45,158 bases of DNA, taken from the IMG/VR virus record IMGVR_UViG_3300030099_005478, positions 1 to 45,158 of that record. One strand, given 5' to 3'. Numbering within the stretch: the stretch's first letter is position 1; each line of letters starts with the position of its first letter. Below, piece by piece: positions 1,851 through 36,010 of the stretch. The DNA comes from a virus. Made by a program: the position numbers and the translations under genes. The notes beneath the pieces were generated by a model, which saw nothing but the letters and a program-made list of their open reading frames with translations, ran no database searches and was not told where the DNA came from.

Positions 1851-2318
1851 ATGCCAAATCAAAGATACGGAATAAAGTTTCCTTTTGAGAATAGTCCACA
1901 AGGATTTTTTTTAGGTTTAAATAAGAGTACAGAGGCAGAAGTTCGTTCTAATTTAATTCATCTTATTTTAACTTTAAAAGGTTCTCGTTATTTTTTACCT
2001 GATTTTGGCACTAATCTTTTAAAATATATTTATGAACCTTTAGATGGTGCAACTAAAACTAATATAGATAAAGAAATAAGAGATGCTGTAAAAAAATTTA
2101 TACCTGGTTTAATAATTAATGAAATCACGGTAAAATCAGCTGAAGATATTAGGGAAGAAGAGGAAAAAGAAAGTGAACCTAATGACCCTAGTTTGGTGGA
2201 CAATAGTTTTGGTTTTGTGGGGGATGCAGAAAGAGAATATACTCTTAGGGTTAGAATAGATTATAATAATGGTGATAATATATTCGCTACAAGAGATTTT
2301 GTAATAATTAATTTATAA
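1851..2318 (+). CDS. Baseplate wedge protein, GPW/gp25 family
   Basis: A 155-residue homologue of T4 gp25 and P2 gpW, a small wedge or sheath-initiating component of contractile tail baseplates. The diagnostic core is at residues 42-63, LKGSRYFLPDFGTNLLKYIY followed by EP, matching the family pattern of a Gly-x-Arg turn, a PDFG motif and a hydrophobic helix ending in EP. An acidic insertion at about 114-135 is longer than in small family members. The following gp6-like gene begins one base after its stop; these two are commonly adjacent in myoviruses. The start chosen follows the candidate promoter and has no Shine-Dalgarno sequence. Confidence 0.88.
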   Translation: MPNQRYGIKFPFENSPQGFFLGLNKSTEAEVRSNLIHLILTLKGSRYFLPDFGTNLLKYIYEPLDGATKTNIDKEIRDAVKKFIPGLIINEITVKSAEDIREEEEKESEPNDPSLVDNSFGFVGDAEREYTLRVRIDYNNGDNIFATRDFVIINL

Positions 2319-2319
2319 T

Positions 2320-4228: not shown

Positions 4229-7200
4229 ATGTCTAAATCATTTAGAGTAAGAACAGAAGTAGGAAAAGATAAAAGTGTAACTTTTGAATTAAAACAAGAT
4301 TTTGATTTATTAGAGATTTTAAGTTTGTCTTTATCACAACAAGATGTGTACACAAGAATGTGTGCAGATTTTGGTGTTTTATGTGGTAGAGTTATTGTAA
4401 ATGGAGGTTACGGGGTACCAAACGCAAAAGTATCTGTTTTTATACCATTAGATAGTATAGATGAAGAAAATCCTTTAGTTACGGAACTTTATCCTTTTAA
4501 ACACCCTACAGAAAAAGATGCTGATGGAGTAAGATATAATCTATTAAGTAAAGATAAAAATTTTGAGTGTCATGTCCCTGTAGGTACATTTCCCATATTA
4601 GAAGATGTTTTAACACGACAAGAAGTAGAGTATGTATATAAAAAATACTATAAATATACAGTAAAAACCAACCAATCTGGAGATTTTATGATTTATGGTG
4701 CACCAGTAGGTTCCCACGATATAGTCATGGATGTTGATGTTAGTGATATAGGTTGTTTTTCTCTTTTACCACAAGACTTTAAAGAACAAGGATTCGCAGA
4801 CTCAGATTTTGATGGAGCCAGATTTAAAAGAAATGCATCTATAGACTCACTACCTCAAATTATGAATCAAACTAAATCGGTTGACATTAGACCATTTTGG
4901 GGTGATGAAGAATTTTGTAGAGCCGCTATAACGAGGGTTGATTTCGATTTATCAGAAAATGGTTTCAAAATACAACCATCAGCCGTTTTTATGGGTAGTA
5001 CAGCTACTGACACCGATAAAGATTCCGTCAATAAAAGCTGTAGACCAAAAAAACATCAAGGGGATTTATGTAGTTTAGTTTCTGAACCAGGAATTATAGA
5101 TATGATTCGTTATACTCCATTTTTTAAAGATGACCCTACAGCTTATGGTTTTGGTGGTATACCACAGGGTGGTACAGTACCAGTTCTAGAAAGATATTAT
5201 TTTGAAAATAATGGTAGAGTAATAGATAGTAGTGGTTCATTTCTAGTTAATGTCCCAATGAATCTTGACCACGTAACAACTAATGAATTTGGTGAATTAG
5301 TTGAATCCGGTAATCCAGATGTTGGAGTACCTACCAGAGCTAGATGTAGATTTAGGGTTAGACCCGAACAATCCGCTGGAACAGCTAGATTACGTAGAAA
5401 AGCTTCATATCTAGTTCCTAATATCAGAGAATATACAACACAAGGTAGAAGTAGAAGTTATACTTTTAGTATAAATTATTCGGATTATCATCCTCACGCA
5501 CAAACTTATTTAATACCTGCAGCTAAGGACTTCTTTTATGATATGACTTTTAATAGGGTGTATTCTCCAGCACAATTTCACGACCATGTTAAACATAATG
5601 GTAGAAGACAATTTATAGGGATAAAAGAAATATTACCCGAAGAAGACCAACAATGTTCTACAACTGCAGTACACTTCCCTATTAATAGTGCAGTTAGAAA
5701 AGTTACTTTTAATTTAATTTTAGCACAGTTTTTGAATCAATTTATTGGTATGTTGTATTCCATGCTTACAATTTTTGTTTCCATTTTAGCTATGTTATTA
5801 GGTGTAGTTTTTGGTATAGTTATGTTTGCTGTTTGGGTTATATGTCAAATATTAATAGCAATTTGTAGTTTTTTTAATGGTTTTCCTTCTTGGTTAGTTA
5901 AATGTCCTGGGTTTTTACAAGGATTTATTTGTGATTTAGGTTGTGATGATATTTGTATAGGCGCTGGTTGTTTTTCATGTCCAGACCCAGTATCTCAAAC
6001 ACCATGTATGTTTTATGGTCTTACTATGGGATTTGTTTTATTTACATTAAGACAAACTAAGTATCCAGAGTGTGAAAAATGTAAATGTAGGGGTAATATT
6101 GGTGAACTTGCTCAACTACCATCTAGTTGTAGTCCAGGAGTTAGTCCACCAGTCGGTAATAATTCAGGTCCTTGTCCTTCACAATCACCTATAGCTAGTT
6201 TTGCGGACCAACTATATACTTGGGGTGGGAACGATTGTTGTGACCCAAATACTAACAATGTTTGTTGTCCAGATAATTACGGATTTGATTCTGCTGCTAC
6301 TGGTAGTGCTCAAGACGGTTACGCAGCCGGAGGTTGTTATGTAAAAGTTGTTTGTATTAATCCTGCGTGTATAGGTGATAACGCAGACTTAGTTATATTA
6401 AGAGAATGGATAAGAAGACAGGATGTGGCGGATGCATTATGTGCTGGTATCATGAATTATTTTTGGGAAAACGCTTGGGTAACAGGATTTTTATACCATT
6501 TTCAATTTAAAGCAAAACTACAATATGACCAGGTAGCTGAAAGTTATGCGGGTTCGGATTATTGTAGAAGAGTAGTATATATTCACCCAACAGAACATAG
6601 TTTTTACTATAGGTCTACACCTTTTGTGCCAGACCCAGCAACAGGATTAGGTACTTTTGTTGGAGACCCTGATGGGGTAGCATTACCTTGGTGGGGAATA
6701 TTCGGTGGTAGTCCTAACCATGCAGATGGAGACCAAGGAGACCACATTCTTTTCCCAACAACAATAACAGATATGGGTTCAAGAAATCAATGTATCCAAG
6801 ACATATGTTTGGACCCTAGGTATGCAGAAGAGTGTTCAGTCACAGACCAAATAGGGTCTACATCATTCCAAGACATAACTGAGTTAGTGTCAGACATATA
6901 CAATATGAAAGCAAATGAACCTCAGATGTTACTAGCTTCACTATTTAATAGACCAGAAAGAGAAATAGGTGGTGATGTTGCACAATGCCTAGCTCAAAAT
7001 TGTATGGCGGGTATTAATGGTTATGAAACTAATATGAGTGATGTTGATTGTGATTGTAGTGGTGCACCACCAGTAGTTAATAATACACCTGGATTAATAG
7101 AATATCCACCAGCTATCGATACAAATGTGGGTAACCCGAGCTTAGGTATCCCATCTAACACTTACGTACAATATGCGGTGAATGCTTGGAGTGACTATTC

Positions 7201-7747
7201 TATAAGGTGGGAACCATTACTATTTACCGCTTCAACACCAACGATAATGTCTGGACAAGATTTAGTTTATTGTCTAGGTTTTTCTCTTACTGCTAGTACA
7301 CAAGAAGTACCATATTATCCTTGGCGTATTAATGGAGGAGCTTGGGGTGATGTATGGAATGATTGGCAAGGCACTAGAGGAGATTATAGTACAGCAACTA
7401 ATGCGACCACTAGTCCACTTATCCCACTTTCAGTAGCTAACTATAATATTGTAAGTAATGTAGCGGGTACATGGGCCAATGCATCAGGACTTTTTCAAGG
7501 AGGATTTGATGGTCCATTTGGTGTACCACCACTATTAGCTGGACAAGTAGGTACAGCACCTAATTTTCAAGTAGTATGGGGTCCCTCCGCATCAAATAGT
7601 TTTCCGCCGATGTCGGATAATAATACGGGTACATTCCAACTATCTCCACCACTATTTTATTATTTTGGACTAAGACCGGGTGAAACTTCCTATCACACAT
7701 TTATTAGAATGTACGTTGATGAAGAATTAGCAGATAGTGTAATATAA
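4229..7747 (+). CDS. Giant virion protein with carboxypeptidase-regulatory-like domain and internal membrane segment
   Basis: A 1172-residue protein, probably a baseplate or tail component from its place directly after gp25/gp6-like genes. Residues about 50-185 read like a carboxypeptidase regulatory-type beta-sandwich: CGRVIVNGGYGVPNAKVSVF, later TNQSGDFMIYGAPVGSHDIV. Residues about 496-549 form a long hydrophobic stretch without charge (LYSMLTIFVSILAMLLGVVF and on to ICSFF), enough for two transmembrane helices. It is followed by a Cys-rich segment (570-720) with CxxC and CC motifs. The C-terminal third is rich in Trp, Tyr, Asn and Pro, as in receptor-binding proteins. Membrane segments are unusual in a phage tail protein; they could insert into the host membrane or be buried in the assembly. 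No family assigned to the whole protein. It ends one base into the next start codon. Confidence 0.7.
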   Translation: MSKSFRVRTEVGKDKSVTFELKQDFDLLEILSLSLSQQDVYTRMCADFGVLCGRVIVNGGYGVPNAKVSVFIPLDSIDEENPLVTELYPFKHPTEKDADGVRYNLLSKDKNFECHVPVGTFPILEDVLTRQEVEYVYKKYYKYTVKTNQSGDFMIYGAPVGSHDIVMDVDVSDIGCFSLLPQDFKEQGFADSDFDGARFKRNASIDSLPQIMNQTKSVDIRPFWGDEEFCRAAITRVDFDLSENGFKIQPSAVFMGSTATDTDKDSVNKSCRPKKHQGDLCSLVSEPGIIDMIRYTPFFKDDPTAYGFGGIPQGGTVPVLERYYFENNGRVIDSSGSFLVNVPMNLDHVTTNEFGELVESGNPDVGVPTRARCRFRVRPEQSAGTARLRRKASYLVPNIREYTTQGRSRSYTFSINYSDYHPHAQTYLIPAAKDFFYDMTFNRVYSPAQFHDHVKHNGRRQFIGIKEILPEEDQQCSTTAVHFPINSAVRKVTFNLILAQFLNQFIGMLYSMLTIFVSILAMLLGVVFGIVMFAVWVICQILIAICSFFNGFPSWLVKCPGFLQGFICDLGCDDICIGAGCFSCPDPVSQTPCMFYGLTMGFVLFTLRQTKYPECEKCKCRGNIGELAQLPSSCSPGVSPPVGNNSGPCPSQSPIASFADQLYTWGGNDCCDPNTNNVCCPDNYGFDSAATGSAQDGYAAGGCYVKVVCINPACIGDNADLVILREWIRRQDVADALCAGIMNYFWENAWVTGFLYHFQFKAKLQYDQVAESYAGSDYCRRVVYIHPTEHSFYYRSTPFVPDPATGLGTFVGDPDGVALPWWGIFGGSPNHADGDQGDHILFPTTITDMGSRNQCIQDICLDPRYAEECSVTDQIGSTSFQDITELVSDIYNMKANEPQMLLASLFNRPEREIGGDVAQCLAQNCMAGINGYETNMSDVDCDCSGAPPVVNNTPGLIEYPPAIDTNVGNPSLGIPSNTYVQYAVNAWSDYSIRWEPLLFTASTPTIMSGQDLVYCLGFSLTASTQEVPYYPWRINGGAWGDVWNDWQGTRGDYSTATNATTSPLIPLSVANYNIVSNVAGTWANASGLFQGGFDGPFGVPPLLAGQVGTAPNFQVVWGPSASNSFPPMSDNNTGTFQLSPPLFYYFGLRPGETSYHTFIRMYVDEELADSVI

Positions 7748-9552
7748 TGAGTAACGAAAAAAATATAAGAATTGTAAAAGGTAGTGAAAGATTTGCTGGT
7801 TCACAAGATAAAGATATTTCTTTACAACCCCTATTAACATCAGACCAAAAAGAACTTATACAAGGAGATAGAAACTTAGTACTTAATCTAAGAGACCAAT
7901 TTGGATTGGAAAGAGAATATTCACAAAGATATAGAGTTACTGGAAAAATAGATGTGTTATATAAAAATGTAATTAGTGGTGAAACTACAGATACTAATTT
8001 TCTTAAATATATGTATTTTACACCAAAACATTTAGGTTGTCCGGATGCTACTGTATATACTACAGCTCCTAATGCTGGACCCCCTTGTACTGGTAAACCA
8101 CCAGCTATGTTATTTGATTTAATACCTAGATTTAAATTTGGTGCACCAGGTAATCCCTCCCTATTTAATAACTTAAATGCATACCAAGAAAATAAAGTTT
8201 TATATTTGTCTTATGTTTTTTCTTCTACCTGTGAAACTATGAGATATTATGTAAATCCTGGTACTAATGATTTTATGGATTTTAACGCCTGTGATGGGAT
8301 ACCATTTGAAGTAGAAATAGTTACAGTTAATGGTAGAGAAGTAGCTAGGTTTAGAACTAAAGTACCACATGGAGTAAAAGTCGGTGAACATATAGAATTA
8401 CAATCAACCCCAAATGTTTCCGGTGGTGCAAATCTAGTACAAAACTTAACTACGGGAGCACCGAATGTATTAAGTGGTGGTGTACCAGTAATGAATCAAC
8501 CACCAGCAACATTTAATATTTTAAATGTTGATTCTTTAGGTGATGGATTTGCGGGTTCTGAAGAATTTGTTATAAATGTAGACTTAAGAGGTATACAACC
8601 ATTACCAACAAACCCAGTGGGTGTATTAAGAAGAATTATAAATTTAAATAATGTTGGTGAAAGTAGGTCTCAGTATTACGTACACCAACATAAAATAATT
8701 ACTAATCATGATGATTATACTTTAGATAGGACAGGTTTTGAAGAAGGGATATACAATAAAAAAGGTAGAGTTTATACCTCTAGAAAAACTCCAGACCAAA
8801 TATCTAAACAAGTTGTTTTAGAAGATTTTCCTTCTTACGTATTTTGTTTTACAAGAGATGTTAATGTTGAAAATTATTTTGATAACCTTAATAGACCACT
8901 AACTGAACTATATGTAACGGTACTACCCACTAATAGAAATAATATGTGGGATTGGTCAGCAAATTCACCAGCCGGATATGGGTGGTCTTGGAATTTTCAA
9001 AAAATAGGTGTAGTAGACCCTTTTGTGGACAATACAGTGGTACCTATAAATCCGATAAATTTAACACAAACTACTAATGATGGTGTACAAGTTTTACCTA
9101 TAAGTGGTCATACATTTAGAGGCGCTTTTGTGGAATATAATGAATTAGAACTTAAGGAAAGAGTTATTTCAGAAATTAAACACTCTTTAAAATTTAATAC
9201 AAGTGCGATGTATGAAATAGGAACTGCTGGTGACCCAGTAAAATCTATATATGCTTATACGCCACATCATAGAATGCATTTAAGAAAATTCTCAAATACA
9301 ATAGTTGATAACGATACATTTTTTACATCACCACAATACTGTACCTATTCACAAGTATCTAATGAATTTAGATGGAGACCGATTTTACCTATAGAGTTTT
9401 ATGAGGATGATGATAACGGTGTTAGTTACCCATATCTTAATGATGCACATTACTTTAATAAAAATATAGAGTTTACGGTTGAACCTGTATTACACAATTA
9501 CACAGCTCAAACCCTAAATATTGTAAATCCATACGAAGATGACTGTGAATAG
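7747..9552 (+). CDS. Large structural protein, family unknown
   Basis: A 601-residue protein with no signal peptide or membrane helix. It is rich in Asn, Tyr, Phe, Pro and Gly, like virion beta-structure proteins. Around 185-225 it has FRTKVPHGVKVGEHIELQST, a beta-rich segment. A few Cys (CPDAT, PPCTG, CDGIP, ending DDCE) point to the same Cys-containing style as its neighbours. It starts on the last base of the previous stop and its 3' end overlaps the next gene by 14 bases, so it belongs to the same operon. Role inferred from context only: baseplate or tail-appendage component. Confidence 0.6.
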   Translation: MSNEKNIRIVKGSERFAGSQDKDISLQPLLTSDQKELIQGDRNLVLNLRDQFGLEREYSQRYRVTGKIDVLYKNVISGETTDTNFLKYMYFTPKHLGCPDATVYTTAPNAGPPCTGKPPAMLFDLIPRFKFGAPGNPSLFNNLNAYQENKVLYLSYVFSSTCETMRYYVNPGTNDFMDFNACDGIPFEVEIVTVNGREVARFRTKVPHGVKVGEHIELQSTPNVSGGANLVQNLTTGAPNVLSGGVPVMNQPPATFNILNVDSLGDGFAGSEEFVINVDLRGIQPLPTNPVGVLRRIINLNNVGESRSQYYVHQHKIITNHDDYTLDRTGFEEGIYNKKGRVYTSRKTPDQISKQVVLEDFPSYVFCFTRDVNVENYFDNLNRPLTELYVTVLPTNRNNMWDWSANSPAGYGWSWNFQKIGVVDPFVDNTVVPINPINLTQTTNDGVQVLPISGHTFRGAFVEYNELELKERVISEIKHSLKFNTSAMYEIGTAGDPVKSIYAYTPHHRMHLRKFSNTIVDNDTFFTSPQYCTYSQVSNEFRWRPILPIEFYEDDDNGVSYPYLNDAHYFNKNIEFTVEPVLHNYTAQTLNIVNPYEDDCE

Positions 9553-10444
9553 AATACAAATACGAGCTTCACTTAATGATGATAAAGTTGTAATACCTAT
9601 AGGGCAAACTTTTGATGAAGCAGGTAGAGAACAATTAATAGAAACTTACGAACAATCTGAGTTACAAGATAATATAAATGAAATAATTGACTATGAAACA
9701 ACTAGATACTCTCATAGTGGGGTGGTACCAGTTACTAACCCTATAACACATGACTATAATTTATTTTACAATTTTTATTTTGCTGACTCCGGCACATTCC
9801 CAATACCAAACACTTTTGAGTTTCAAGGATTTACTCAAACAGAATTAAATAGGAAACCTAAATCATTTACTAATAGTTTTTTTAAGTTTGATTACTACGA
9901 TTCTCCAGAAAGAAAAAAACAAAAATTAATGTTTTCAGTTATTGTACCAGCGGGACAATGTTTTAGACAATCAGGAGTACCAATACCAATTACTGAATAC
10001 GAATATCAAGTACAGATATCGGAAGGGATAACGAACCCAACCTGGAGTATATACATACCTTCTATGACACTAGGACCTATAAATGATGGTGAAAATTTAT
10101 ATTCTGATGGGTATTATTTACAATGGCTTAAGACTAGAGAAATAATACCTAATGATACATTTTACATGCAATGTAAATTTTTTAATGCAAAAACCGGTAA
10201 AATAGTTAGAATGGTTAATAGAAATCCTATTGACCCACTTACCAATACATTATACACATTTTACGATTACCCAGATTGGTTTTTTTATGAAGTTAAATTA
10301 AAAATAAATTACTCTACAGAAAATCCAAAGTATAATTATACTATAAGGGAGTTTAATAATAATACATTGTTATCTGGTATACCTGGTGGACAAGCGGGTA
10401 CAGCAGGTAACCCAATAAACTTTTATGAATATGTTAACCCATAA
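9539..10444 (+). CDS. Structural protein, family unknown
   Basis: A 301-residue protein, mostly predicted beta from its alternating aromatic and polar residues, with few Cys. It begins within the preceding gene (14-base overlap, TGACTGTGAATAG region) and its stop shares one base with the start of the giant Cys-rich gene, so translation of the three is tightly linked. It ends in FYEYVNP; the giant neighbour ends in SDYLNP, a small similarity that may be chance. The position suggests a connector or base for the giant protein that follows, which is inference. Confidence 0.55.
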   Translation: MTVNRIQIRASLNDDKVVIPIGQTFDEAGREQLIETYEQSELQDNINEIIDYETTRYSHSGVVPVTNPITHDYNLFYNFYFADSGTFPIPNTFEFQGFTQTELNRKPKSFTNSFFKFDYYDSPERKKQKLMFSVIVPAGQCFRQSGVPIPITEYEYQVQISEGITNPTWSIYIPSMTLGPINDGENLYSDGYYLQWLKTREIIPNDTFYMQCKFFNAKTGKIVRMVNRNPIDPLTNTLYTFYDYPDWFFYEVKLKINYSTENPKYNYTIREFNNNTLLSGIPGGQAGTAGNPINFYEYVNP

Positions 10445-13400
10445 TGGAAAGACAAAAATTTAGAATAAAAAGAAAAAATGCAAGATTTTATGGTACAGCA
10501 ACCTGTAGTACTACTGGTACTACCGGATTGTGGCCTTTAAATTTTAGTGTACCATCTGTTAGTGGGGTAACTAACGCTTGTAGTGATATACCTATATATT
10601 CTTCATTAGGTGTTGAAGTTTTTAATGCATTGAATGGAGATATGACTACTTTTCCTGAAGATATAAGAAATTGTAGTATGAGTGAACCGTGTGTTATGTT
10701 ATGGAATACACCTTCACCTACTTTTATAAACCCAGCACAATGTAGAGACAACGATGGAAATGCTTGGGTAAAATTTGAGGGTATACAGTTTTGGAGTGCA
10801 GGAACACCAACATCAGGAACCTATAATGAAATTATGGATATATATGATATCTACAATGCCGACCCGACACTTAATTCAGTAGGACAACTTGGTGGTTTTT
10901 TTACACCTATACTTACCCCATGTTTTTGTGAAAATCCTTTAGAAGGGCAAGATTTAAGTCATGTAAAATTATTTATGAGTCAAGATTTTAATGATATAGG
11001 TCATTATACTGTATTTGATGGTAACATAAGTCAAAAAGATGTATTTTCAAATTTTTTATTTACATCCTTTACTAATTATGATGTTAGGGTTTTTAATACA
11101 ACTGATTTTAGTTACTATAAACATACACTACCTTCTAACTTTACAATAGATTGGGGTGATGGTAGTGCACCTAGTACCCTAATTTATCCAAATTTAAGTG
11201 ATATACACAGTTACCCCAACTTTCCACAAACTTATATGGTAACTATCACACAACAAACACCATGGGGACCTCAAAGTATTAGTAAATCACTTACAGTACC
11301 AAATTTAAATTATATGGATATGTTCGGTCAATCATTTGTACCAACCACTCCAGGTTCACCAGGTTTTGGTCAAGGTGGTTTACAACCAGCACAAAACCAA
11401 ACTATTATAACTGGACCTCCACTTTATAGTGTAAATGGTACTACTTTACAAGTCCAAACCAACGACCCAATTGCTAATATAGGTTCAGCTACTACCTACC
11501 ATACTTATTATGGTAGTGAAGGTAGTGATGATTATTTACCTTTAGATAGTGGTGTTAGTATACTCCAGTATAGTGGTATGAGTCCAACTCCTTGTTTTGA
11601 GGTATCTGGTATAACAGAAAGTAGTTTAGGTTCTTTCCAAACATATAGTACTACTAGTAATGACCCTAATTTAGGTCCTGGATATTTTATAAATATAATG
11701 ACCCCGGTAGGTGGTGATGTTGAAAATCCCTTAACTAATACATTAGAAAATCAGTTAGAAGGTATGATATTTTTAGCAAACACTAATGTTACAGGTTACA
11801 CAATACAATCTTCAACACCAGGTTCACTTAATACACCTATAGATTTTTATGATTTTGCTAATGGAATTACTATTTTTGTAGCTCAAAGCTGTGGTCCTGA
11901 TGCCAGAGTTTTTGGTGGAGAAGATTGTTATAAATGTCCAATAGAGAATTGTTTATATTGTGAAGAAAAAGATGAGTATATAGATAGGGTTACCTTTAAT
12001 CCTACATTGATACAATTTGACCCTATTGTTAATACTAATTATGCAGCACTAGGACAAGCATGGTCTCCAAATATAGATTACCTACCAGGAGATATAGTTT
12101 TTGATGTCACAGCAAATTTATGTTGTTGTTTTATGGTTGTTAAACCTATAAATCAATCTAATCCAGTAACTCAATCACCTTGGGCTTTCACACCACCCGC
12201 TATGACTGCTCAGGGTGTTTGGCAAAACCCTAATATTGGACAAGATGATGAACATATATATGAAGCATGTTGTTATTTTCCTGACTGTGATTGTGCACCT
12301 TGTCCTGATGGTACTCTAGTACCTTGTAATGATTTTACGTTACCAGCACAGTGGGGTGGACCAAACTCAACTAATGGTGGTGTTTATTTAAATGGTACAG
12401 TTTACAATACAGGACAGTTTATCGCTGATACTCATGGAAATTGTTACAAAGCTCTACAAACAGGAGTTTTGGGTTCACCAACAGGTATGAGTAGTACTTT
12501 AGAATGGGAATACACGGGTTGTATAAGTTGGATATGTCCAACAGACCCTCTTAATATTGGAATCTATGGATGTGAACCAATTTCAGGTAGTAGTACTAAT
12601 GTAATTAATAGTTATTTTCCAACACCAGGTATGGTTTTTGTTGGTAATACATTCTACCAAGATTGTTTAGATGATTTTAATAATGGTGTTTGTCCTTATC
12701 CTGAAAGATGGGTTTGTGATGACCAGTATAGTTGTAATAATTGTATACCTATATATCCAGGACAAGTTAGTCCTGGTGGTGTAGCATATAATGACCCATC
12801 CTATCCTTTTGGGCCTTTATTTTCTGCACAATCACAATGTGATGAGTGGTGTAATCCATCTTTATTTTCGTGTACAACACCAACCATCCCTTGTTGTGCC
12901 ACAATTAATTGTAGTACACAAGCTTTATATTTTTCTTTAACTAATATGATACCAAATGGTATGTCTGCTTTAGACGTACTCATCAATTATAGTTTATATC
13001 AAGCTCCAACATATACTTTAGCAGATTGTCAAAGTGGTTCATCTATTGAACCACCATGTTGTGTAGTTACTTATGATTGGGATTGTGAATCTGGGTGTAC
13101 CGCGGTTCCATTGGTTAATACGCCTTCTAATGCTTCAAGTATAAATCCTTCAGTACCAAACAACGTACCACAAACTTTACAATATTGTCAACTATTAAAT
13201 AATGGTGGTTTACCTGGTATACAACAAATACCTCCAGTAGCTTGTGGGTGGTCATGTACAACACCTTATGCTGTTTACAATCCGTACGACCCAGGACCAC
13301 CACCTTATGACCCTTATGGTTTAGGTTATTATTCTAGTCCTTGTACACCATGTTATACTATTGGATGTGCACCATTCCCGGATGAAATATCTTGCGTAAT

Positions 13401-16400
13401 TAATTGTTCAGGTTCAACTACCTGTTTTATTTGTGACTGTAGTCAACCCCAGGGTTGGTATTCTGCAACCCCATGCCCAACCCCCAATAGTTGGGGTAGT
13501 AATGTTTTTGGGCCAAATAATGGTGTAGTAAGTGATGGTACAGGTTTATTAACATATGCTACAGCAAATGATGCTATAGCAGCAGATTGTTGTGATGAGG
13601 GTTGGGATTGTTGGATAATAAATGACCCTAATGACCCTAATAATGGACAACCAACTGGAGATGGGTGTAAATATTATCCTAATGCATCTATGGTACCCTC
13701 TAATTTGACTGCCAGTACAGGTGGACCATACAGTTCATTTACGGAGTGTTGTATAGAAACGGGATGTTGTTATTCAGAATGTGATTGGTTTGCAGCTTCA
13801 CAAACAACATACTCTAACACAGCACAACCAACAGGATTTTATCCTTGTGTTTATTTGTCTGCATTAACTTCTTCCTTCATGAGTTGTCATCCACTAAATC
13901 CAGCACCACCATCTAACGCAAATCCTTTTTGTACAATACAAGATTGTTATTCTTTTACTAACCCAGCTAACCAAACTGAGATTAAATGTCCGGATGACCC
14001 AGGTGAATGTGTATGTTGTTCTGCTTATACATGGAGTAACTATGGTTATAGTGTACCATTAACAGATAGAGGTGTATTCAATTATCCTGGTTTAGGATAT
14101 CAAATGTTTGATACCGTAGAACACCAAGATGCAGACTCACCACTTTGTTGTTATATTTGTATGTGTCCTAGTAATGGTGGTGGGGGTACACCAGTAAATG
14201 GTTTATTAGATTGTGATGGTTTTATACCTGATGATGGTCCTGCACCTACAGGGCAACCTAATTGTTGGGAAAGTTGTACTTACGAACCCACAATATCTTC
14301 ATTCCCAATAGATATTAACTATGATACTACGGGAAATATTATAAACATAACACCTAGTCATTGTCCTTCATGTTTGGACGCATACTCAGCACAAACATAT
14401 GAGTGTACACCTAATGGATGTCAAACATCAAGTTGTGTTATTAATCCAGCATTTTCAATGACATCACAAAATTGCTATGACACACCAAACTGTGTTGGTA
14501 TATCAGGTATACCAGAATGTGTATCTGGATGTTATTGTCAAGAAGGTCCAGGTGGTTCTGGAGCACAACCATGGTCTATCACAGGATGTGTTGTACTACA
14601 AGATTTTTTAAACCAAACTGATAATATATACACTGGAGGGTACCCAACATTTCCGGTTCCAGGTACAATTCCTCCAGCAGGATTCCCAAATAATTTACCT
14701 AACTATCCATTTACTACATTAAATCTGTGTCTGTCATCTATACCTACAGGGTTAGATTGTTGTGATGAACCAAGATATTGGTGTGAAAATATGTGGTTTT
14801 GTGGTCAATTAAGTACAGGACAGGGATGTCTACCAATATATCCAGGTGACCCAAACTATTCAATAGCACCTTTCACTAACTTACAAGATTGTCAAGACTA
14901 CTGTACATGGGAATGTGACCCAGTTGGGTTAGGACAATGTCAATTTGTAGCTAATTCTACTGCGGTTATAACCTTTAGTAGTGGACCTGATTGTGAAATA
15001 GCACATCCTAACTGTGATTGTAAACCAATAATACCAGATGAATGGTATTGTGATGATAGTGGTACAATTGGTATAACACCTAACAGTAGTAATTGTATTA
15101 ATATTCCAGCAGGTCAAACACCACCTAATCCTGGAAATACTTGGGGTATAATACCCGCAACTTTACAACCTTGTGCACATGGAACCCCAGGGTGTTTTGG
15201 TTTTGGACAACAATCACTATGTGAAGCTTATTGTACATTTTGTTGTGATGTTGCTCCACCAGGTAGTTCATTTTGTCAATTAAGTTGGGGTAATCCAGTT
15301 ACTTGTGATTCGTCTTTATACGATTGTGTACAAACTTCTATAACCACATATGGTCAGTATCCTTGTGTACAATCACCAGATACTAGATTTTGTTGTGACC
15401 AAATTAGTGGGTGTCAACCTTACATAGGTGCGGCACCAGCAGGTTGTTTTGGTCAATATTTAAATATGAATGACTGCCAAACAGAATGTAATTTCTTCTG
15501 TGATGATTGTGTACCTACTTGTGAGTGTATATTTACAGGTCCAGTGCCTAATTCTTGTATGGGTGTAGCGATAGCTTATACATCGATGACACAATGTGAA
15601 AATGCAGTATTAGCTAGTGGTACAATAGGTGGTGGTAAAGGATGTTGTGATTGTTGGGAATGTTATGACCAAGGAGGTGTAACATATCAAATATTAAATA
15701 GTTCAAATCTATGGGTAAGTGTTAACCAAACAGTTAATTTTAGTTCTTTACCAGCTTTACCATGGGTTTCAGGTCAAATTTATAGTCCAGGTGATGTAGT
15801 TTTAGCGGGAAGCCAACCAGGTGCAGACCCAACATGTTGTTACGTCTTAGTTTATCCACATTATATTACTACAACAGAACCAGTACAATACTATCAACAA
15901 TATCTAGCTGACCTCGCAAATAACACCCAAACTCAAGCATCATCCGCAATATGGATTCCTTGTGATGTTGATTGTCCAAACCCAGGACCATTAACTGGGT
16001 GGGAATGTGAACCAGGTGCGTATGTAAATGTATGTTTAGGTAAACAAATTAAATTTGGTGATGGCGTACCTTCTTGTTGTGGACATTGTATTGGTGGAGG
16101 TGGTGGTTGGAGTATAACTATCCCAGGTCTAGATGTGGGTAGATGTCATGCGATGGAACCAGTTGATGTTTTAAGACTGGTCAGTGCTTACATTAATAAT
16201 GATGGACAAATACATAGTTGTCCACAATTTGGACCAAACAGTTGGATGGGTGGTGGAACAGCGAATGGCATCGGAGTACAAAGTAGATTCTACGAAATGC
16301 CTAACACAGATGGTACACCTGGTGGTTTTAATAATGTATCTAGTTGTTGTGAAGGTTGTAATCTATTAGACGACCCTAATGATTTTGGTAGTGCAATAGG

Positions 16401-17766
16401 TGGGTGCTTATACGGTATAAATTATTTTAGTGTTGTTGGAAACGTGGACTACATAAACCCTGCCAGTCCAAACTACTGTGTCCAACTAACCCAAAATTTC
16501 ACATTATGGTCAAGTTTTATGGCTGCACTACAACTTTGTAGTATACACCCAGGGGGTATTCCTTGGAATATTAATTCAGGAGTAAATTACAATTGTGAAT
16601 TTGATGATGTAGCTAATTATTTACATACGGACCCATTATGGAACGAAACAGCAATAGATGATTGGTTATATATAAACTGGCAATATTGTCCATGTGTAGA
16701 CCAACCATGTTTTTGTTACCCAGTAACAGGAAGTACTGGTAGTTATCCTAGTCAGTCTGTATGTGAACAAGATTGTTGTCAATATTTTGTTTGTGAACAA
16801 AATTTAACTACACTAGAATGTGAATGTGTAGCTTTACCATTAGGACAAGTAGGTCCTTACCCGACCCTAGCAGATTGTCAAAATGATACAACTACTTGTT
16901 GTGCACCAAAAACTTGTACTGATTGTGCAGGACAAATGTTTCAAATATACCACCAAGATTTTAGTGGAATACCATACCCAAATGCAAGTACTCAAGGTAT
17001 AATTGGTGGACCATTTGGACCAACCTATACCACAAACCAAATATGGTCCGCAGCTGACATATATAATCAAGGTAACATAGTACAAGACCCAAATGATGGA
17101 TGTTGTTACTATCAAGTATATCGAGAACAAATAGATGATAATATTCCTGGGGTATATTTAGCTCCTTATCCACCTAGTGTATGTTATAGTAACTGGTTAC
17201 TAGGTTTAGCTTGTGACGGGTCTTCAATGTCTAACCCAACACAAGTTACAGCAACTCAAGCAGGAGCTCCATCAGGACCATTTCCTCTAGTATTAGCTGG
17301 TGGTTCGGTTTGGTGGCCTTGTAAGGAAGATTGCCCTTCTATAGAACCTAGTGGTTCTGGACATGAACCTTCAGGTGATTGTGAAAAATGTTGTATGGCA
17401 CATGGATTTGTTATGCAACTACCACTAAACGCTAATCCATGTAAATGTCCACAAGGGTATTACGAAGTTCCTTGTGATTTAGAACCATCAGGAAGTGGTG
17501 AGGAACCAGTAGCTAAATGTAAAGACCAACGTTATTTAGAAACATTGATGTTTGATATTACAGCATCATATACATCTACACCAACAATCCACAGATTCTG
17601 TACGGAATGTAATCATCCACCAGGAGATGTTTACGATTTTGCTCAATCATTTTTAGATTTACAAGGTAACCCATATTGTGACTGTTGTGATGATATACCA
17701 TATACCTCAGGTGGGGTATATTCACAACTAGGAACCGCTTGGATTTCTGACTACCTCAACCCATAA
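10444..17766 (+). CDS. Giant Cys-rich multidomain virion protein (PKD-like and carbohydrate-binding-like modules)
   Basis: A 2440-residue protein with about 180 Cys by eye count, very unusual for a phage. Residues about 205-290 resemble a PKD domain (TIDWGDGSAPS at 234-244, then YMVTITQQ). Several segments have the W....Y..GD.V......CCY..V pattern of small CBM5/12-type chitin or cellulose binding modules, near residues 540, 1774 and 2200, with weaker ones near 654 and 1212. A second repeated motif has the form C...GC...Y.sl.dC...C (for example LQDCQDYC, MNDCQTEC, SLCEAYC). Ser-Gly linkers (EPSGSG) occur near the C-terminus. No signal peptide. The Cys probably form disulphides outside the cell or bind metal. 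Likely a fibre or surface-adhesion component; no family name for the whole can be supported. Confidence 0.65.
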   Translation: MERQKFRIKRKNARFYGTATCSTTGTTGLWPLNFSVPSVSGVTNACSDIPIYSSLGVEVFNALNGDMTTFPEDIRNCSMSEPCVMLWNTPSPTFINPAQCRDNDGNAWVKFEGIQFWSAGTPTSGTYNEIMDIYDIYNADPTLNSVGQLGGFFTPILTPCFCENPLEGQDLSHVKLFMSQDFNDIGHYTVFDGNISQKDVFSNFLFTSFTNYDVRVFNTTDFSYYKHTLPSNFTIDWGDGSAPSTLIYPNLSDIHSYPNFPQTYMVTITQQTPWGPQSISKSLTVPNLNYMDMFGQSFVPTTPGSPGFGQGGLQPAQNQTIITGPPLYSVNGTTLQVQTNDPIANIGSATTYHTYYGSEGSDDYLPLDSGVSILQYSGMSPTPCFEVSGITESSLGSFQTYSTTSNDPNLGPGYFINIMTPVGGDVENPLTNTLENQLEGMIFLANTNVTGYTIQSSTPGSLNTPIDFYDFANGITIFVAQSCGPDARVFGGEDCYKCPIENCLYCEEKDEYIDRVTFNPTLIQFDPIVNTNYAALGQAWSPNIDYLPGDIVFDVTANLCCCFMVVKPINQSNPVTQSPWAFTPPAMTAQGVWQNPNIGQDDEHIYEACCYFPDCDCAPCPDGTLVPCNDFTLPAQWGGPNSTNGGVYLNGTVYNTGQFIADTHGNCYKALQTGVLGSPTGMSSTLEWEYTGCISWICPTDPLNIGIYGCEPISGSSTNVINSYFPTPGMVFVGNTFYQDCLDDFNNGVCPYPERWVCDDQYSCNNCIPIYPGQVSPGGVAYNDPSYPFGPLFSAQSQCDEWCNPSLFSCTTPTIPCCATINCSTQALYFSLTNMIPNGMSALDVLINYSLYQAPTYTLADCQSGSSIEPPCCVVTYDWDCESGCTAVPLVNTPSNASSINPSVPNNVPQTLQYCQLLNNGGLPGIQQIPPVACGWSCTTPYAVYNPYDPGPPPYDPYGLGYYSSPCTPCYTIGCAPFPDEISCVINCSGSTTCFICDCSQPQGWYSATPCPTPNSWGSNVFGPNNGVVSDGTGLLTYATANDAIAADCCDEGWDCWIINDPNDPNNGQPTGDGCKYYPNASMVPSNLTASTGGPYSSFTECCIETGCCYSECDWFAASQTTYSNTAQPTGFYPCVYLSALTSSFMSCHPLNPAPPSNANPFCTIQDCYSFTNPANQTEIKCPDDPGECVCCSAYTWSNYGYSVPLTDRGVFNYPGLGYQMFDTVEHQDADSPLCCYICMCPSNGGGGTPVNGLLDCDGFIPDDGPAPTGQPNCWESCTYEPTISSFPIDINYDTTGNIINITPSHCPSCLDAYSAQTYECTPNGCQTSSCVINPAFSMTSQNCYDTPNCVGISGIPECVSGCYCQEGPGGSGAQPWSITGCVVLQDFLNQTDNIYTGGYPTFPVPGTIPPAGFPNNLPNYPFTTLNLCLSSIPTGLDCCDEPRYWCENMWFCGQLSTGQGCLPIYPGDPNYSIAPFTNLQDCQDYCTWECDPVGLGQCQFVANSTAVITFSSGPDCEIAHPNCDCKPIIPDEWYCDDSGTIGITPNSSNCINIPAGQTPPNPGNTWGIIPATLQPCAHGTPGCFGFGQQSLCEAYCTFCCDVAPPGSSFCQLSWGNPVTCDSSLYDCVQTSITTYGQYPCVQSPDTRFCCDQISGCQPYIGAAPAGCFGQYLNMNDCQTECNFFCDDCVPTCECIFTGPVPNSCMGVAIAYTSMTQCENAVLASGTIGGGKGCCDCWECYDQGGVTYQILNSSNLWVSVNQTVNFSSLPALPWVSGQIYSPGDVVLAGSQPGADPTCCYVLVYPHYITTTEPVQYYQQYLADLANNTQTQASSAIWIPCDVDCPNPGPLTGWECEPGAYVNVCLGKQIKFGDGVPSCCGHCIGGGGGWSITIPGLDVGRCHAMEPVDVLRLVSAYINNDGQIHSCPQFGPNSWMGGGTANGIGVQSRFYEMPNTDGTPGGFNNVSSCCEGCNLLDDPNDFGSAIGGCLYGINYFSVVGNVDYINPASPNYCVQLTQNFTLWSSFMAALQLCSIHPGGIPWNINSGVNYNCEFDDVANYLHTDPLWNETAIDDWLYINWQYCPCVDQPCFCYPVTGSTGSYPSQSVCEQDCCQYFVCEQNLTTLECECVALPLGQVGPYPTLADCQNDTTTCCAPKTCTDCAGQMFQIYHQDFSGIPYPNASTQGIIGGPFGPTYTTNQIWSAADIYNQGNIVQDPNDGCCYYQVYREQIDDNIPGVYLAPYPPSVCYSNWLLGLACDGSSMSNPTQVTATQAGAPSGPFPLVLAGGSVWWPCKEDCPSIEPSGSGHEPSGDCEKCCMAHGFVMQLPLNANPCKCPQGYYEVPCDLEPSGSGEEPVAKCKDQRYLETLMFDITASYTSTPTIHRFCTECNHPPGDVYDFAQSFLDLQGNPYCDCCDDIPYTSGGVYSQLGTAWISDYLNP
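15652..15978 (+). repeat. Coding repeat, copy A of a duplicated Cys / carbohydrate-binding-like module
   Basis: Protein-level module: CWEC start, a Gln-Ile segment, then SGQIYSPGDVV, a CCYVLVYPH turn, a variable spacer and the end IWIPCDVDCP. It shares its order and key residues with copy B at 16915-17337. The DNA has diverged, so this is an old duplication or one under diversifying selection. Confidence 0.55.
16915..17337 (+). repeat. Coding repeat, copy B of the duplicated Cys / carbohydrate-binding-like module
   Basis: Protein-level module: CTDC start, a MFQIYHQ segment, then AADIYNQGNIV, CCYYQVYREQ, a longer spacer and the end VWWPCKEDCP. It matches copy A at 15652-15978 in order and key residues, with a longer spacer between the CCY turn and the closing Cys pair. 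Confidence 0.55.
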
Positions 17767-17769: not shown

Positions 17770-18405
17770 ATGAAAGAGTACGGAGTATTTTATAAGTTTG
17801 AAGTTGGTCCTATTCATGTAGAAAAAAAATTATATAGACCTAGTATTAATAGATTTAATAATTGGTATGATAAAATAAAAGAAAGACCTTGGTTTAAAGA
17901 TTTTGAATTTGTAATAGTTGGTGGATTCGCTAATGTTATTAGAAGTGTAAATCCCTGGGCAACTTGGGATGTTGATATGATAATGATGTCTGATTATAAA
18001 GAAGAAGATAATATTAAAATTAAAAACTGTTTAATAGAATGCTCACATACCGCTTTAGTAGAAAATGATTTTTTTTTAGACATTTATTATCATGATAAAA
18101 CCAATTTTAAAAATATAGAAGAAGACTTTAGAAATACATATGAATCTATAAAAAACGGTACACTATACGAAAAAAAATATAAACACGAAATCTTACAATA
18201 TACCCAAAATGTAAAAAGAAACGATAAAATAGTTTCTAGATGGGCAAAAGGAAAACCAGTAATTGAGGGTTTATGGAAAAACTCTTTAACTTTTCCTAGT
18301 CAAAAACAAATAAAAAAGCTAAAGGCTGGAAAAATATATACAAAACCTATTTTATTAAGTGAATATGATAGAATAAGAAATCTAATACCCAATATTTATA
18401 TATAA
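17770..18405 (+). CDS. Nucleotidyltransferase-like protein inside the tail block
   Basis: A 211-residue protein. FVIVGGFANVIRS (48-59) followed by WATWDVDMIM gives the Gly-Gly and Asp-x-Asp (D67, D69) pattern of the polymerase-beta-type nucleotidyltransferase fold, and FFLDIYY supplies a plausible third Asp (D104). All three metal-binding Asp are therefore present, so it may be active in transferring a nucleotide to an RNA, protein or small molecule. The family includes antibiotic adenylyltransferases and AbiEii or MenT type toxins; the sequence does not decide between them. It lies between virion protein genes, 3 bases after the giant Cys-rich gene, and a candidate promoter for the next gene overlaps its last codons. 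Confidence 0.6.
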   Translation: MKEYGVFYKFEVGPIHVEKKLYRPSINRFNNWYDKIKERPWFKDFEFVIVGGFANVIRSVNPWATWDVDMIMMSDYKEEDNIKIKNCLIECSHTALVENDFFLDIYYHDKTNFKNIEEDFRNTYESIKNGTLYEKKYKHEILQYTQNVKRNDKIVSRWAKGKPVIEGLWKNSLTFPSQKQIKKLKAGKIYTKPILLSEYDRIRNLIPNIYI

Positions 18406-18411: not shown

Positions 18412-18633
18412 ATGAGCTTTACAAAAGTATTTACCTCAGGATGTATAGAACCTCTTACAAAAGAAGAGGTTTTGATGAATGTAGTTGAAAGACCGGAGAC
18501 TAGGTCTAATATATTTATTGAGAGGGGTAAAATATCAGTGTTTGAGAAAGTACAAAGATTAGGCCAAACTTTTAATTTAGGACAATTACAATTACATGGT
18601 TATGGTTTTTATAAAATAAATAAACAATTATAA
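18412..18633 (+). CDS. Small protein, family unknown
   Basis: A 73-residue protein with a central stretch ERGKISVFEKVQRLGQTFNL and an aromatic C-terminus (HGYGFYKINKQL). No signal peptide, no membrane helix, one Cys. It is placed 6 bases after the nucleotidyltransferase-like gene and 1 base before the next structural gene, so a small baseplate or tail component is plausible. Coding status is supported by the tight packing and by a candidate promoter just upstream. Confidence 0.6.
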   Translation: MSFTKVFTSGCIEPLTKEEVLMNVVERPETRSNIFIERGKISVFEKVQRLGQTFNLGQLQLHGYGFYKINKQL

Positions 18634-18634: not shown

Positions 18635-19552
18635 ATGGCATTAGGAGCATACGGAATAAAAAGACCAGCAGACGTTTTACCAGATGATGTACAAATAATT
18701 GTACATTTTACACCTAGTAGAGATGCTACTAATACCTCTATAGTAACTAATGTTCCAGCAAATCAAATACTAAGTCCACATTTCCATGATTCTACAACTG
18801 GTGGTAATAATGGTATAGAAGTTTTAGGTGGATTATACGATTTAAGATTACCTAGTTCTATTTTTGCTAATAAAGGAATATACACGGTTTATCTTAGACC
18901 TATTGAGATTAGAACTAGTATAACAGATTGTGGTATATTATCATCTTTACCTAATGTAAAAGGGTTAGTTTTTGATTTAAATCAGATACCAGCACAGTTT
19001 AGGAGTAGATTTAGACCTCATTCTTTGGTTGGTTATAGGATAGAGTATTTACAAGCCAGTGGAGAAAAGATACACAACTTTTACAGAATTGTAACATCTA
19101 ATTTTTATTGTGAACCTGTACCAGCCAATCTAACCAACCCAAATCAAGTATCACCAAGATATATTTACACTAATACAGAATCCAATTTGGTTTTTTGTAC
19201 ACTAACACCAACAAGTGCACCATCAAATAACCCTAACGCGATACCTTTTATAGGTCAACCAGCACAATCTGTTATAATAACAAATACTTTCTTTAACCCT
19301 TTAGTGTTAGATATTGAAATGGTAGACCATGATTTTGAAACCTTAGCTATTTCACTTTATGGTAATCAAAGTAAATCTATAGAAGATGGTATATATACAC
19401 TTTATGATTTATCTGGACAAAATAATATCTATGCACAATACGACATATATGAAGTTAGAGACCAATTTAATGAACAATTATATGAAGTTAGACAAAATAG
19501 AGGTACAAATATAGACTTTAATAAATCATTTATTGATGTAACAACAAGTTAA
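18635..19552 (+). CDS. Structural protein, family unknown
   Basis: A 305-residue protein without membrane helices. Its composition (Asn, Thr, Tyr, Pro, Ile) and alternating pattern suggest mostly beta structure. Notable segments are YTVYLRPIEIRTSI near 85-98 and SLVGYRIEYLQASGEKIHNF near 131-150. It is preceded by the 73-residue protein with one base between and followed six bases later by the gpI-like baseplate gene. It could be a wedge or hub accessory protein; this comes from context only. Confidence 0.6.
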   Translation: MALGAYGIKRPADVLPDDVQIIVHFTPSRDATNTSIVTNVPANQILSPHFHDSTTGGNNGIEVLGGLYDLRLPSSIFANKGIYTVYLRPIEIRTSITDCGILSSLPNVKGLVFDLNQIPAQFRSRFRPHSLVGYRIEYLQASGEKIHNFYRIVTSNFYCEPVPANLTNPNQVSPRYIYTNTESNLVFCTLTPTSAPSNNPNAIPFIGQPAQSVIITNTFFNPLVLDIEMVDHDFETLAISLYGNQSKSIEDGIYTLYDLSGQNNIYAQYDIYEVRDQFNEQLYEVRQNRGTNIDFNKSFIDVTTS

Positions 19553-19558
19553 CGTATC

Positions 19559-22500
19559 ATGGCTACTAATAAATTTAGATACCCACCAGCTCCAGGACAC
19601 GGGGGAGATACGTTTAGTGATAATTTAGTTGGAAACCAAATTACAAATGGTTCTTCCCAGATGACGATGGGTAATTTTAGTACCCAACCAACCAATTCTA
19701 CTCTACTATCTCAACCAAAACAAGAAACAGCTGTATTTTCTTCACCCATAACCTTAAATAGTTTAAATATTGGTGATTTAGAATTAGCTAAATCCACAGT
19801 AAAAAATAACTTAGAAATTTTTATAAATACAGATACTTCTGAGATAAGTAATTTAGTTTTATATGGTTCTTTAAAAAAGAGATTTAGTGTTGCAACACAA
19901 AATATTATAAATAATTTTCCAGCTGCATTATATATTGACGGTGTAAATGAAAATTTAATACCAGGAAATACAACAGCTTTTAATATATCATATAATCAAA
20001 ATGACGACACGACAACTTTAGACATTAATGTTAATGTAATATCTAATCCATTTAATATTGAATTCACAACTAATGGTGATTTATTAGACACACCAATATC
20101 ACCACAACAAATTTTAAATAATTTAAATAATTTTGGACAAACAGCTAATACAGTAACAGGTATCGCGGAAGGAAAAATTAGTTCGGTTAGAAATTTAACA
20201 AATCAATTCTTGAATTATGCTTTAGTTTTTAGTGGTGAGTTAAATAGTAAAGAATATAAATTAACAGAGTTTGTACCACAATCTGTAAGTACTAATTTTA
20301 TTAGATTAAAAGTTGAAGGTAATCCTTTTGCTGGACTTAGTACCACAAAAACCAAATTTTACATAAAACCAAATAGTATAACAACAGAAAAACAATTTAA
20401 AACATTTTTAGGTGTAGAAAAAACATTACTAAATCGAGATATAACACCTATATATACTAGTGTTTATAAATTAATTAGAGAAACAACTCAAGGGATTTCT
20501 TATATAGATGAAGTTAAAAAGACTTGGCCGTTACAAGATGAAATAAATTTAGACCTAACAACACCAAAATACACAGATTATTTACTTTCATTAGCTGATT
20601 TAGGTGATGAAATGGATAAACAAAAAACTAATTTAGTTTCTAGATTTCTAACTACACCAGCTCTTAAAGAATTTGACACCAATGACCAAAAAGTAGAAAA
20701 AACTTTACAAATATATGGAAGAAGTTTTGATGATATAAAAATATTTGTAGATGGTATAGCTCATATGACTAAATTAAGTTATGACGAAAAAAATAATATA
20801 CCAAATGAACTAATTAAAAACTTTGCACAAACACTAGGATTTTCTACACCTAGTACTTTAAACAATGATACTTTTTTAAATAATATATTAGGGGTTACAG
20901 AACCAATTTATTCTGGTACTTCTATAAGTAAAACACCCGCAGAGTTAGATATTGAACTATATAGAAGAATCTTATTAAATATATCACACCTATTCAAATC
21001 AAAAGGAAGTAGAAAATCAATAGAATTCTTACTGGAATTAGTAGGTGCACCTCCAGCTTTAGTAGAATTTAATGAATATGTTGTTTTAGCAGATAAAAAA
21101 ATAAATATTAATAGATTTGATGAATTTTGGGACCCACTTAAAGACGGTACTTTTAGAACTGGAACGATTAAATACAGTATACCATTCCAAACTTTTTTTA
21201 CCGCAACAGCGAGTACAGCACATCCATTTATTAGAAGTGACTACCCTATAGATTTACATGGATACCCTACAAAACCTAGAATTAATAATAATTATTTTTT
21301 CCAAAGAGGAGCTGGTTGGTTTGAAAGAACGGAAACACACACATCAGATTTAATAATAAATACTGAAACTTCTACAGTAACAGGATGCACACCAACAGTT
21401 AAACTTAAATTTAGAGATTTTACTTGGGGTGGTTTTTGGACACAAGGTAAGTTTTCTAATGAATTTAATGCACCATACTTAGATAGATTTTGGAGATTTC
21501 CATTAATGCCTTTTGGTTTTGGTTTAGAAAGAATCATAGATGATAAAAAATCTTGGGTAAGAGATGAAGAAGAGTATATTTTCTACGAAGATTTTGAGGT
21601 TTATGCTTCAAAAATAACCACACTAGATGCAGATGGTAATCTAACAACCACACAAAATAAATTACAAGCTAATGTTTTTAAAGAAAATAATGCCGCTAAA
21701 ACTTGTGAGGAAATAGAAGACACCAAAATTAAAATAGAAAATAAACTTTTACAACTTACTGTATCAGGAAGTAATCCCCAATGGAGAAAACAACTCAAAT
21801 CAAGAATAGAATACTTAGAACTATTACAAGAAAGAAAATGTTTTAATAAGTCAACAACTAGAAATTTTCAGTTTAAAGAAAGAGGAGCTTATTATGGTGT
21901 TAAAGATGAAAGATTGGTTTTAAATGTTAAAAATGTAGACTTGTCCTTAAATGTAGGACAAGCTTTAGCTTACGATGTATGGCAACAATCAGCCAATTAT
22001 AACTGTTTATTTAGTGGAGCGTCATTACCCTCACCATTTCCAAATAAAAACGGTAGATGGGATGCTACAGACCCAAAAATTAACGCAAAAACATTAAATT
22101 TTAAAAACTTCTATAAAGATTTTTGGAAATTTTTTATAGATACTAAAAATAGAATGACCATAAATGATGGAAAGACAGGAGGGTATCCTACATTACAAAA
22201 AATATATATAGATTATCTAGAAAAAAAATGTGGTGAAAACAATCAGTATACTTACGCCAAAATGTTGGAATATGCACAAACACTAGGAGAATATTGGATT
22301 AGAATAATAGAACAAATGGTTCCAGCTACTACTTTATGGACCAGTGGGTTAAAAGTAGAAAATTCAGTATTTCATAGGGACAAGTTTGTTTATAGGTGTT
22401 ATAATATGAGTGGGGTAACAATGCCTATTATACCACAAAGTATGTTATCTGCATCTACTACCGGTTATACATCTTTTCCGGCACCAAGATTTGGTGTGCA

Positions 22501-23014: not shown

Positions 23015-23024
23015 TAGACAAATT

Positions 23025-30766: not shown

Positions 30767-30780
30767 AATAAAATAAAATA

Positions 30781-30796: not shown

Positions 30797-30804
30797 AAAA
30801 AACT

Positions 30805-36006: not shown

Positions 36007-36010
36007 AAAT

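Follow-up and report, generated by a model that had tools for sequence, protein, structure and literature searches.

Introduction

The cytoplasm in which phage proteins fold is reducing, and what a phage might do with a single chain that carries some 180 cysteines is the question raised by the locus described here. The window, that is, the whole stretch analysed, is a 45-kb fragment of a viral genome (IMG/VR record IMGVR_UViG_3300030099_005478, positions 1 to 45,158). On its plus strand, an open reading frame (ORF) at 10444..17766, with an ATG start and a TAA stop, encodes a Cys-rich protein of 2440 aa, hereafter “the giant”. A previous reading of the bare DNA (the original prediction) had placed this protein in a phage tail block and had suggested that it serves host attachment. 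It had also proposed sensitive profile searches, structure prediction of segments, and a search for homologues and their gene context; all three were carried out. In this report, we put at roughly 60% the probability that the giant is a baseplate-attached adhesive arm of a contractile phage virion, stapled by disulphides after release, with its distal third contacting host glycans. We infer the virion location, the disulphide oxidation, the arm shape and the glycan binding from the lines of evidence set out below. The giant is probably a disulphide-stapled, sticky arm, of a kind not previously described in phages.

A Cys-rich protein without a family

The giant has a mass of 263 kDa, an isoelectric point of 4.05, 1.0% Lys, 23 His and 181 Cys (7.42%; 175 TGT and 6 TGC codons), which agrees with the first count of about 180 Cys, or some 7%, in 2440 residues. 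That this content is far above the usual also holds: among 587 other ORFs of at least 300 aa in the fetched loci, the median is 0.87%, the 95th percentile 2.97% and the maximum 3.5%. The cysteines are confined almost entirely to the region from about residue 483 onward, with just 8 in residues 1-480. In the window giant alone, their spacing is close to that expected from composition (22 CC versus 15.4 +/- 3.6; 19 CxxC versus 15.1). Across 11 members of the family, there is an excess of CC (z 4.6) and CxxxC (z 6.6) and a deficit of C-x4-C (z -3.4); CxxC is hardly enriched (z 1.9). Thus, of the repeated CC, CxxC and CxxxC clusters described originally, the first and third are a family trait, while CxxC is not, and the window by itself hardly departs from composition.

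Profile searches of the whole protein and of its pieces agreed with the claim that no family covers it: there was no match in Pfam, PHROGs, PDB sequences or a tblastn search of 50,697 phage records (INPHARED). Relatives were found first via the giant's neighbour genes and then via its own conserved region. With the window counted and one near-duplicate excluded, the IMG/VR contigs hold 20 distinct complete giants of 2440-2991 aa, with 181-255 Cys (7.4-8.6%). The bacterial and archaeal genomes of GTDB, scanned with the conserved A6 region, yielded no relative. No hydrophobic signal was seen at the giant's N-terminus (MERQKFRIKRKNARFYGT); synthesis is therefore presumed to take place in the cytoplasm, with oxidation following lysis.

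A hypervariable distal third

The distal third of the giant (residues ~1800-2440; 15841..17763, plus strand, as are all features below unless noted) is assigned by homology from close relatives as hypervariable save for its Cys. No near-identical strain of the window giant itself is known; the hypervariability is taken from pairs of relatives. Between loci L146 and L147, giant residues 1-1100 are without amino-acid change and the neighbouring 301- and 73-aa proteins are identical. From about residue 1800 to the end there are ~136 amino-acid changes, and 197 of 197 Cys are kept. The ratio of nonsynonymous to synonymous substitution rates (dN/dS), taken by section, climbs from 0.00 to 0.84 in this pair (dN 0.105, dS 0.125), and the same trend is evident in L135/L136 (0.05 to 0.67), L142/L144 and, in milder form, L134/L137. 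The distal values (0.27-0.84) exceed those of residues 1-480 (0.00-0.15), and the proximal arm lies well below 1. Because distal dS is raised too, exchange of diverged distal segments contributes to this pattern. Assembly chimeras might mimic it in one pair, but would hardly place one boundary in several pairs with flanks that regain near-identity. Diversification by a diversity-generating retroelement was considered and rejected: RVT_1 was absent from 10 records (possibly incomplete), and changes at codon position 3 are about as frequent as those at other positions over ~800 residues.

Host-recognition proteins such as tail fibres usually combine a conserved anchor with a tip that can be exchanged. 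The hypervariable, exchanged distal third of the giant thus appears to bear the mark of a host-recognition tip, and the host-attachment role first suggested gains support from it. As in receptor-binding proteins, the gene lies in a tail/baseplate cluster and its product joins a conserved proximal region to a hypervariable distal one. The giant shares a conserved proximal anchor and an exchangeable distal end with long tail fibres and other phage adhesins. It differs from long tail fibres, the shafts of which are usually trimeric and beta-helical, in that it matched no fibre family and has small modules of the disulphide type instead of shafts.

Two kinds of module are discernible in the arm. 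The first resembles the chitin-binding CBM5/12 domains. Module 1 (residues 540-610; 12061..12273), with Cys insertions, has the motif W..(x)Y..GD.V....CC[YF]...V, which is conserved in the giants; module 3 (residues 2201-2297; 17044..17334) was likewise assigned by motif. Module 2 (residues 1770-1844; 15751..15975) was assigned by fold. The AlphaFold2 model of residues 1440-1900 is poor (mean predicted local distance difference test score, pLDDT, of 56; ~50-80 locally at this module). Nevertheless, residues 1770-1844 of this weak model match CBM5/12 domains of chitinases and chitin deacetylases with Z 3.3-4.6 and a root-mean-square deviation (rmsd) of 1.2-3.2 over 44-50 residues, most of them 1.2-2.8 over 44-47 residues. 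The same residues also match a tail-fibre domain of phage 7-7-1. A family that the fold search did not list was not counted as absent. CBM_5_12 was the only Pfam family to answer, with an E-value of 0.52 for one isolated module and 0.016 in the relative L123. No match exceeded the PF02839 cut-off (none in the window; best relative L123, 15.7 bits versus 26.2), and the sequence support for the assignment is weak but specific. The modules are like CBM5/12 in their W..Y..GD.V core and, tentatively, in the fold match of module 2; they differ by a CC inserted before the core Tyr, a W-x-P/A-C closure and scores below the Pfam cut-off, and glycan binding by them is a prediction. The “CBM-like” modules noticed at the outset are therefore best described as CBM5/12-like, as the models suggest.

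The second kind is a new module of ~37 aa with six Cys (consensus TWDCDDTNTGGCGCVPVPNGTGPYTSLADCQADCNNCC). The giants carry 5-13 copies each at an independent E-value (iE) <0.01 in searches with a hidden Markov model (HMM) of the module. The five in the window are residues 1451-1489 (14794..14910; iE 2.9e-5), 1488-1524 (14905..15015; 8.8e-9), 1684-1735 (15493..15648; 0.0011), 2084-2112 (16693..16779; 2.5e-4) and 2116-2153 (16789..16902; 2.9e-10). The copy at 1488-1524, a hairpin plus helix in a weak model, is faintly Kunitz-like: it superposes on the hairpin and C-terminal helix of a Kunitz/BPTI domain (APPI residues 16-57; VIA Z 2.9, rmsd 2.1-2.2 over 38 residues). It lacks, however, the N-terminal part bearing the inhibitory loop, and searches of Pfam and of PDB sequences gave no Kunitz match. 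We do not call the module Kunitz because the superposition is weak and without that loop; the resemblance is likely convergent. DUF5637 was also rejected for this module, with a best E-value of 0.0014 (isolated modules) under the cut-off, no match in three whole giants, and matches in control genomes as well.

A separate observation concerns the 1395-aa protein encoded at 22953-27140. Its C-terminal part holds Pro/Gly-rich linkers and small Cys motifs (YYCEGASYGCQY..FVSLDECNAFC; and CKDGFYWCESAGKCISIKEAC, LDL-receptor-A-like by eye). These recall the 37-aa module, but the module HMM gave no significant match.

The alternative that retains most force is that the arm serves chiefly as armour or as a mechanical tether, with disulphides that render the baseplate shear- and protease-proof, and that recognition lies in other, fibre-like genes downstream. 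There is precedent for it. Disulphide networks in the contractile virion of Agrobacterium phage Milano, whose proteins average 1.4% Cys (2.1% for the structural ones), confer mechanical stability and have to be reduced before contraction (PMC10811340, PMC10491603), and a disulphide network is also present in the virion of 7-7-1, a Milano relative (PMC12796354). Further, additional putative fibre genes do lie downstream of the giant, at 27155-37657. Against this stand the carbohydrate-binding-type modules of the giant and the distal third, whose hypervariability and exchange between near-identical phages fit recognition better. We consider armour as the main function unlikely, if worth keeping in view.

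The putative anchor and its probable origin in a compact baseplate protein

The N-terminal part of the giant is the candidate attachment point of the proposed arm. It comprises an N-terminal domain (residues 1-165; 10444..10938; confident fold from about residue 40), which is present in long giants and missing from the ~360-aa sister protein described below, and an anchor region (residues 174-484; 10963..11895) homologous to that Cys-free protein. Within the latter lies a PKD-like domain (residues 195-288; 11026..11307) with the sequence ..IDWGDGS... The AlphaFold2 model of residues 1-620 has a mean pLDDT of 63, but the N-domain and PKD region are mostly at 70-91 (residues 41-160, 74-91). The best structural matches of the PKD-like domain in VIA are SGBP-B of Bacteroides fluxus (7kv7; Z 8.2, 27% identity) and Vibrio PKD1 domains (6aem, 4l9d; Z 7.3-7.4), with FN3 and monobody entries ranking just under PKD1. 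Pfam PKD gave no match in this domain. Assignment of the model to the Ig-like/PKD class is safe, and the combination of beta-sandwich fold and WGDG motif points to PKD. The PKD-like module named in the original prediction is borne out by this fold. Among viral models, the nearest is a 364-aa “PKD domain-containing protein” of an uncultured phage (E 5.5e-15), the length of which is as in the sister-clade protein.

In the sister clade (loci L019-L085; gp6 mostly 55-60% identical to that of the window), a protein of ~360 aa with 0-4 Cys occupies the giant's place. The match covers giant residues 174-484, and the final ~60 residues of the sister protein correspond to the 73-aa ORF downstream of the giant (18412..18633). 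There is a single break point: the plain form reads '...GTTIFFxQSSGLT...PITKDEVLL...', whereas the giant reads '...GITIFVAQSCG...' and the 73-aa protein 'M...TSGCIEPLTKEEVLM...'. A conserved Cys flanks the break on each side, one in the giant and one in the 73-aa protein. In a side lineage (L120, L121), two adjacent Cys-rich ORFs (~1,020-1,040 and ~1,010-1,060 aa) replace the single giant, and the second of them still carries the C-domain, fused at its end. At the junction between the giant and the 73-aa gene, an intron or RNA element was sought and rejected: Rfam gave no match, and the 73-aa ORF starts with an ATG of its own.

From these alignments, ~2,000 residues of Cys-rich modules lie where the presumed ancestral protein was split. 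The gp6 tree needs one change between plain and giant forms, and the giants form one branch in it (Shimodaira-Hasegawa-like approximate likelihood ratio test, 100). Insertion into a compact protein, as opposed to loss of the region, is the simplest reading and gives the probable direction of change; the outgroup phages, which have no detectable homologue, did not root the tree for this character. The ~360-aa PKD protein of uncultured Caudovirales (BFVD A0A6J5L9U6; L019-L085) therefore resembles the giant in its PKD-core anchor, its neighbours and a C-domain akin to the 73-aa ORF, but differs in being one chain with 0-4 Cys and no Cys-rich arm. The original prediction had named homologues lacking the Cys pattern as evidence against it. 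The outcome of this check is mixed: such a Cys-free homologue does exist, yet without the ~2,000-aa region, and all homologues that have the region keep its Cys frame.

The gene order, wherever the locus reaches, is 601 aa, 301 aa, giant, an optional ORF of ~190-245 aa, 73 aa, 305 aa and 1151 aa. In the window, three co-conserved genes (1172, 601 and 301 aa; 4229..10444) precede the giant, as they do in all relatives whose loci extend there. The optional ORF is represented by a 211-aa frame (17770..18405), and the 305- and 1151-aa genes (18635..23014) follow the 73-aa ORF. Farther upstream are gp25-like and gp6-like baseplate wedge genes (1851..4140; PHROG matches 4.3e-13 and 3e-17), which also occur in those relatives whose loci extend far enough. 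The tail-block location first proposed can thus be narrowed to the baseplate operon of a contractile phage, with 20 complete giants sharing a common locus.

Placement of the giant in the virion is by synteny and homology, and an alternative in which it is a non-virion protein draws on this fact. In that case, the infected cell would produce the protein and release or display it, for instance in superinfection exclusion or aggregation at lysis, and the Cys-rich modules of the giant do resemble those of secreted proteins. Three facts make this improbable: the giant has no N-terminal hydrophobic signal, its ancestor-like homologue belongs to a baseplate operon, and its anchor is under strong purifying selection.

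A nearly invariant cysteine frame

All 43 Cys aligned between the window and L001/L086, which are 69% identical, are conserved. Conservation of Cys is still 93% at 35% identity, as opposed to 58% for Trp, the next best residue. Of 327 core columns conserved at >=95% in the 20 giants, 144 are Cys, and in the distal part (residues 1850-2440) Cys account for 27 of 31 such columns. In total, 134 of the 181 window Cys occupy columns conserved at >=95%. Where Cys columns do vary, they tend to do so together: 16% of pairs within 80 columns have phi >=0.95, versus 5.6% of pairs >300 apart, a 2.9-fold ratio, whereas W, G, P, Y, D and N controls give 1.0-1.4-fold. Paired gain and loss is as expected for disulphides, although metal sites could also give it.

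The original prediction had left disulphides and metal binding as alternatives. A metal-rich scaffold, in which the Cys bind Zn or Fe-S clusters, would account for their great number and for their paired co-variation. However, CxxC is only slightly enriched (z 1.9) and CC and CxxxC dominate, His is scarce (23 of 2440 residues), and the module topology resembles, if weakly, disulphide-rich extracellular folds. The sequence pattern therefore favours disulphides, and a metal-rich scaffold seems quite improbable. A relaxed, nearly neutral expansion with no specific job, to which the distal dN/dS in excess of the anchor's might point, is already contradicted by near-total Cys conservation at 33-35% identity, by proximal-arm dN/dS well below 1 and by the retained length of 2440-2991 aa in complete giants, and we give it next to no credence.

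Proposed architecture and its implications

We propose that the N-terminal ~480 residues (N-domain, PKD and beta domains) would serve as an anchor inherited from the compact ~360-aa baseplate protein, the C-terminal ~60-aa domain of which would be today's separate 73-aa protein. The remaining ~2,000 residues would form a long arm of small modules, namely the six-Cys repeats of ~37 aa and the CBM5/12-like, putatively carbohydrate-binding modules with their Cys staples, with disulphides in place of a large hydrophobic core. The Cys would be reduced during cytoplasmic assembly and oxidised after lysis, giving a stiff, protease-resistant arm. The proximal arm would stay conserved, while the distal third would diversify and recombine under the fixed Cys frame and touch host surface glycans.

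Several points weigh against this proposal. Virion membership is argued from synteny and homology. The fold matches in the Cys-rich region are weak (Z 2.9-4.6) because the AlphaFold2 model there is poor (pLDDT 56). Some of the Cys could be metal sites. Distal dS is raised along with dN, so the variation is at least partly recombination and not point selection. A trimeric-fibre signature was not found in the giant. Finally, no phage-encoded oxidase was found, the search for Erv1/Alr being uninformative, as its control matched nowhere either; one thioredoxin is present, in a 210-kb record.

Milano and 7-7-1, both with contractile tails, also have elevated Cys, and disulphides occur in their baseplate and receptor-binding proteins (PMC10811340, PMC12796354); they thus offer a precedent for the giant. 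They differ in having few bonds per subunit, which link ordinary folds, whereas the giants concentrate 7.4-8.6% Cys in a single chain composed of small modules. A sequence relation between the two was not found; the giant family is several-fold richer in Cys and organised differently.

There is a real chance that the giant, probably a phage adhesin by function, stands in a class of its own. More tentatively, at somewhat less than even odds, this would be a new class of attachment organelle, an arm of ~2,000-2,500 residues in one chain that is anchored to the baseplate and assembled from Cys-stapled mini-modules. In such an arm, a disulphide frame would replace the fibre shaft and would let almost all other residues vary in the service of host recognition. 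It would have arisen once, by the splitting of a compact PKD baseplate protein, with the C-domain acting in trans and perhaps cross-linked through the two conserved Cys that flank the split point. The locus seems to offer a clear case of a structural protein that was split open and received a giant Cys-rich region, its last domain surviving as a separate gene. Up to 255 nearly invariant Cys per chain raise the question of how and when the virion oxidises itself, and whether redox gates infection. Such an arm would give phages a scaffold akin to animal disulphide-rich proteins, with fixed staples, free loops and fast evolution of specificity. If confirmed in an isolate, it would supply the design of glycan binders with a new scaffold and would represent an unread host-range determinant of uncultured phages.

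Host and other genes of the window

A Bacteroidota host, as proposed originally, is plausible. Shine-Dalgarno sites precede none of 24 window genes, as compared with 1 of 29 in the Flavobacterium phage immuto and 13 of 30 in the cyanophage Mel-JY01; this scarcity is consistent with such a host but no proof of it. The Bacteroidota promoter motif was not enriched. The closest named gp6 relatives are those of Flavobacterium phage immuto, Microcystis phage Mel-JY01 and a 484-kb uncultured phage, all at <30% identity, and the 1151-aa protein has weak similarity to a long baseplate-block protein of immuto and others.

Some other genes deserve mention. The 1172-aa protein (4229-7747) has a strongly hydrophobic stretch of ~55 residues (about residues 495-550) and a Cys cluster at residues 539-714, which is unusual for a baseplate block; its sister-clade counterpart is mostly 1,570-1,880 aa with ~1% Cys. 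The 211-aa ORF (17770-18405) has a GGFAN..(x)..TWDVDM motif, small-nucleotidyltransferase-like by eye, and no Pfam match. A minus-strand ORF at 42410-43105 resembles an M23-type peptidase, by eye only. In the tail block, a 259-aa protein with 15 Cys (33288-34067) contains a dockerin type I domain (Pfam E 7.7e-9). The C-terminal ~40 residues encoded at 36443-37657, in a protein of 404 aa, recur C-terminally in several fibre-like proteins of immuto, Mel-JY01 and LR756508, and this shared sequence is probably a common fibre C-terminal or chaperone element.

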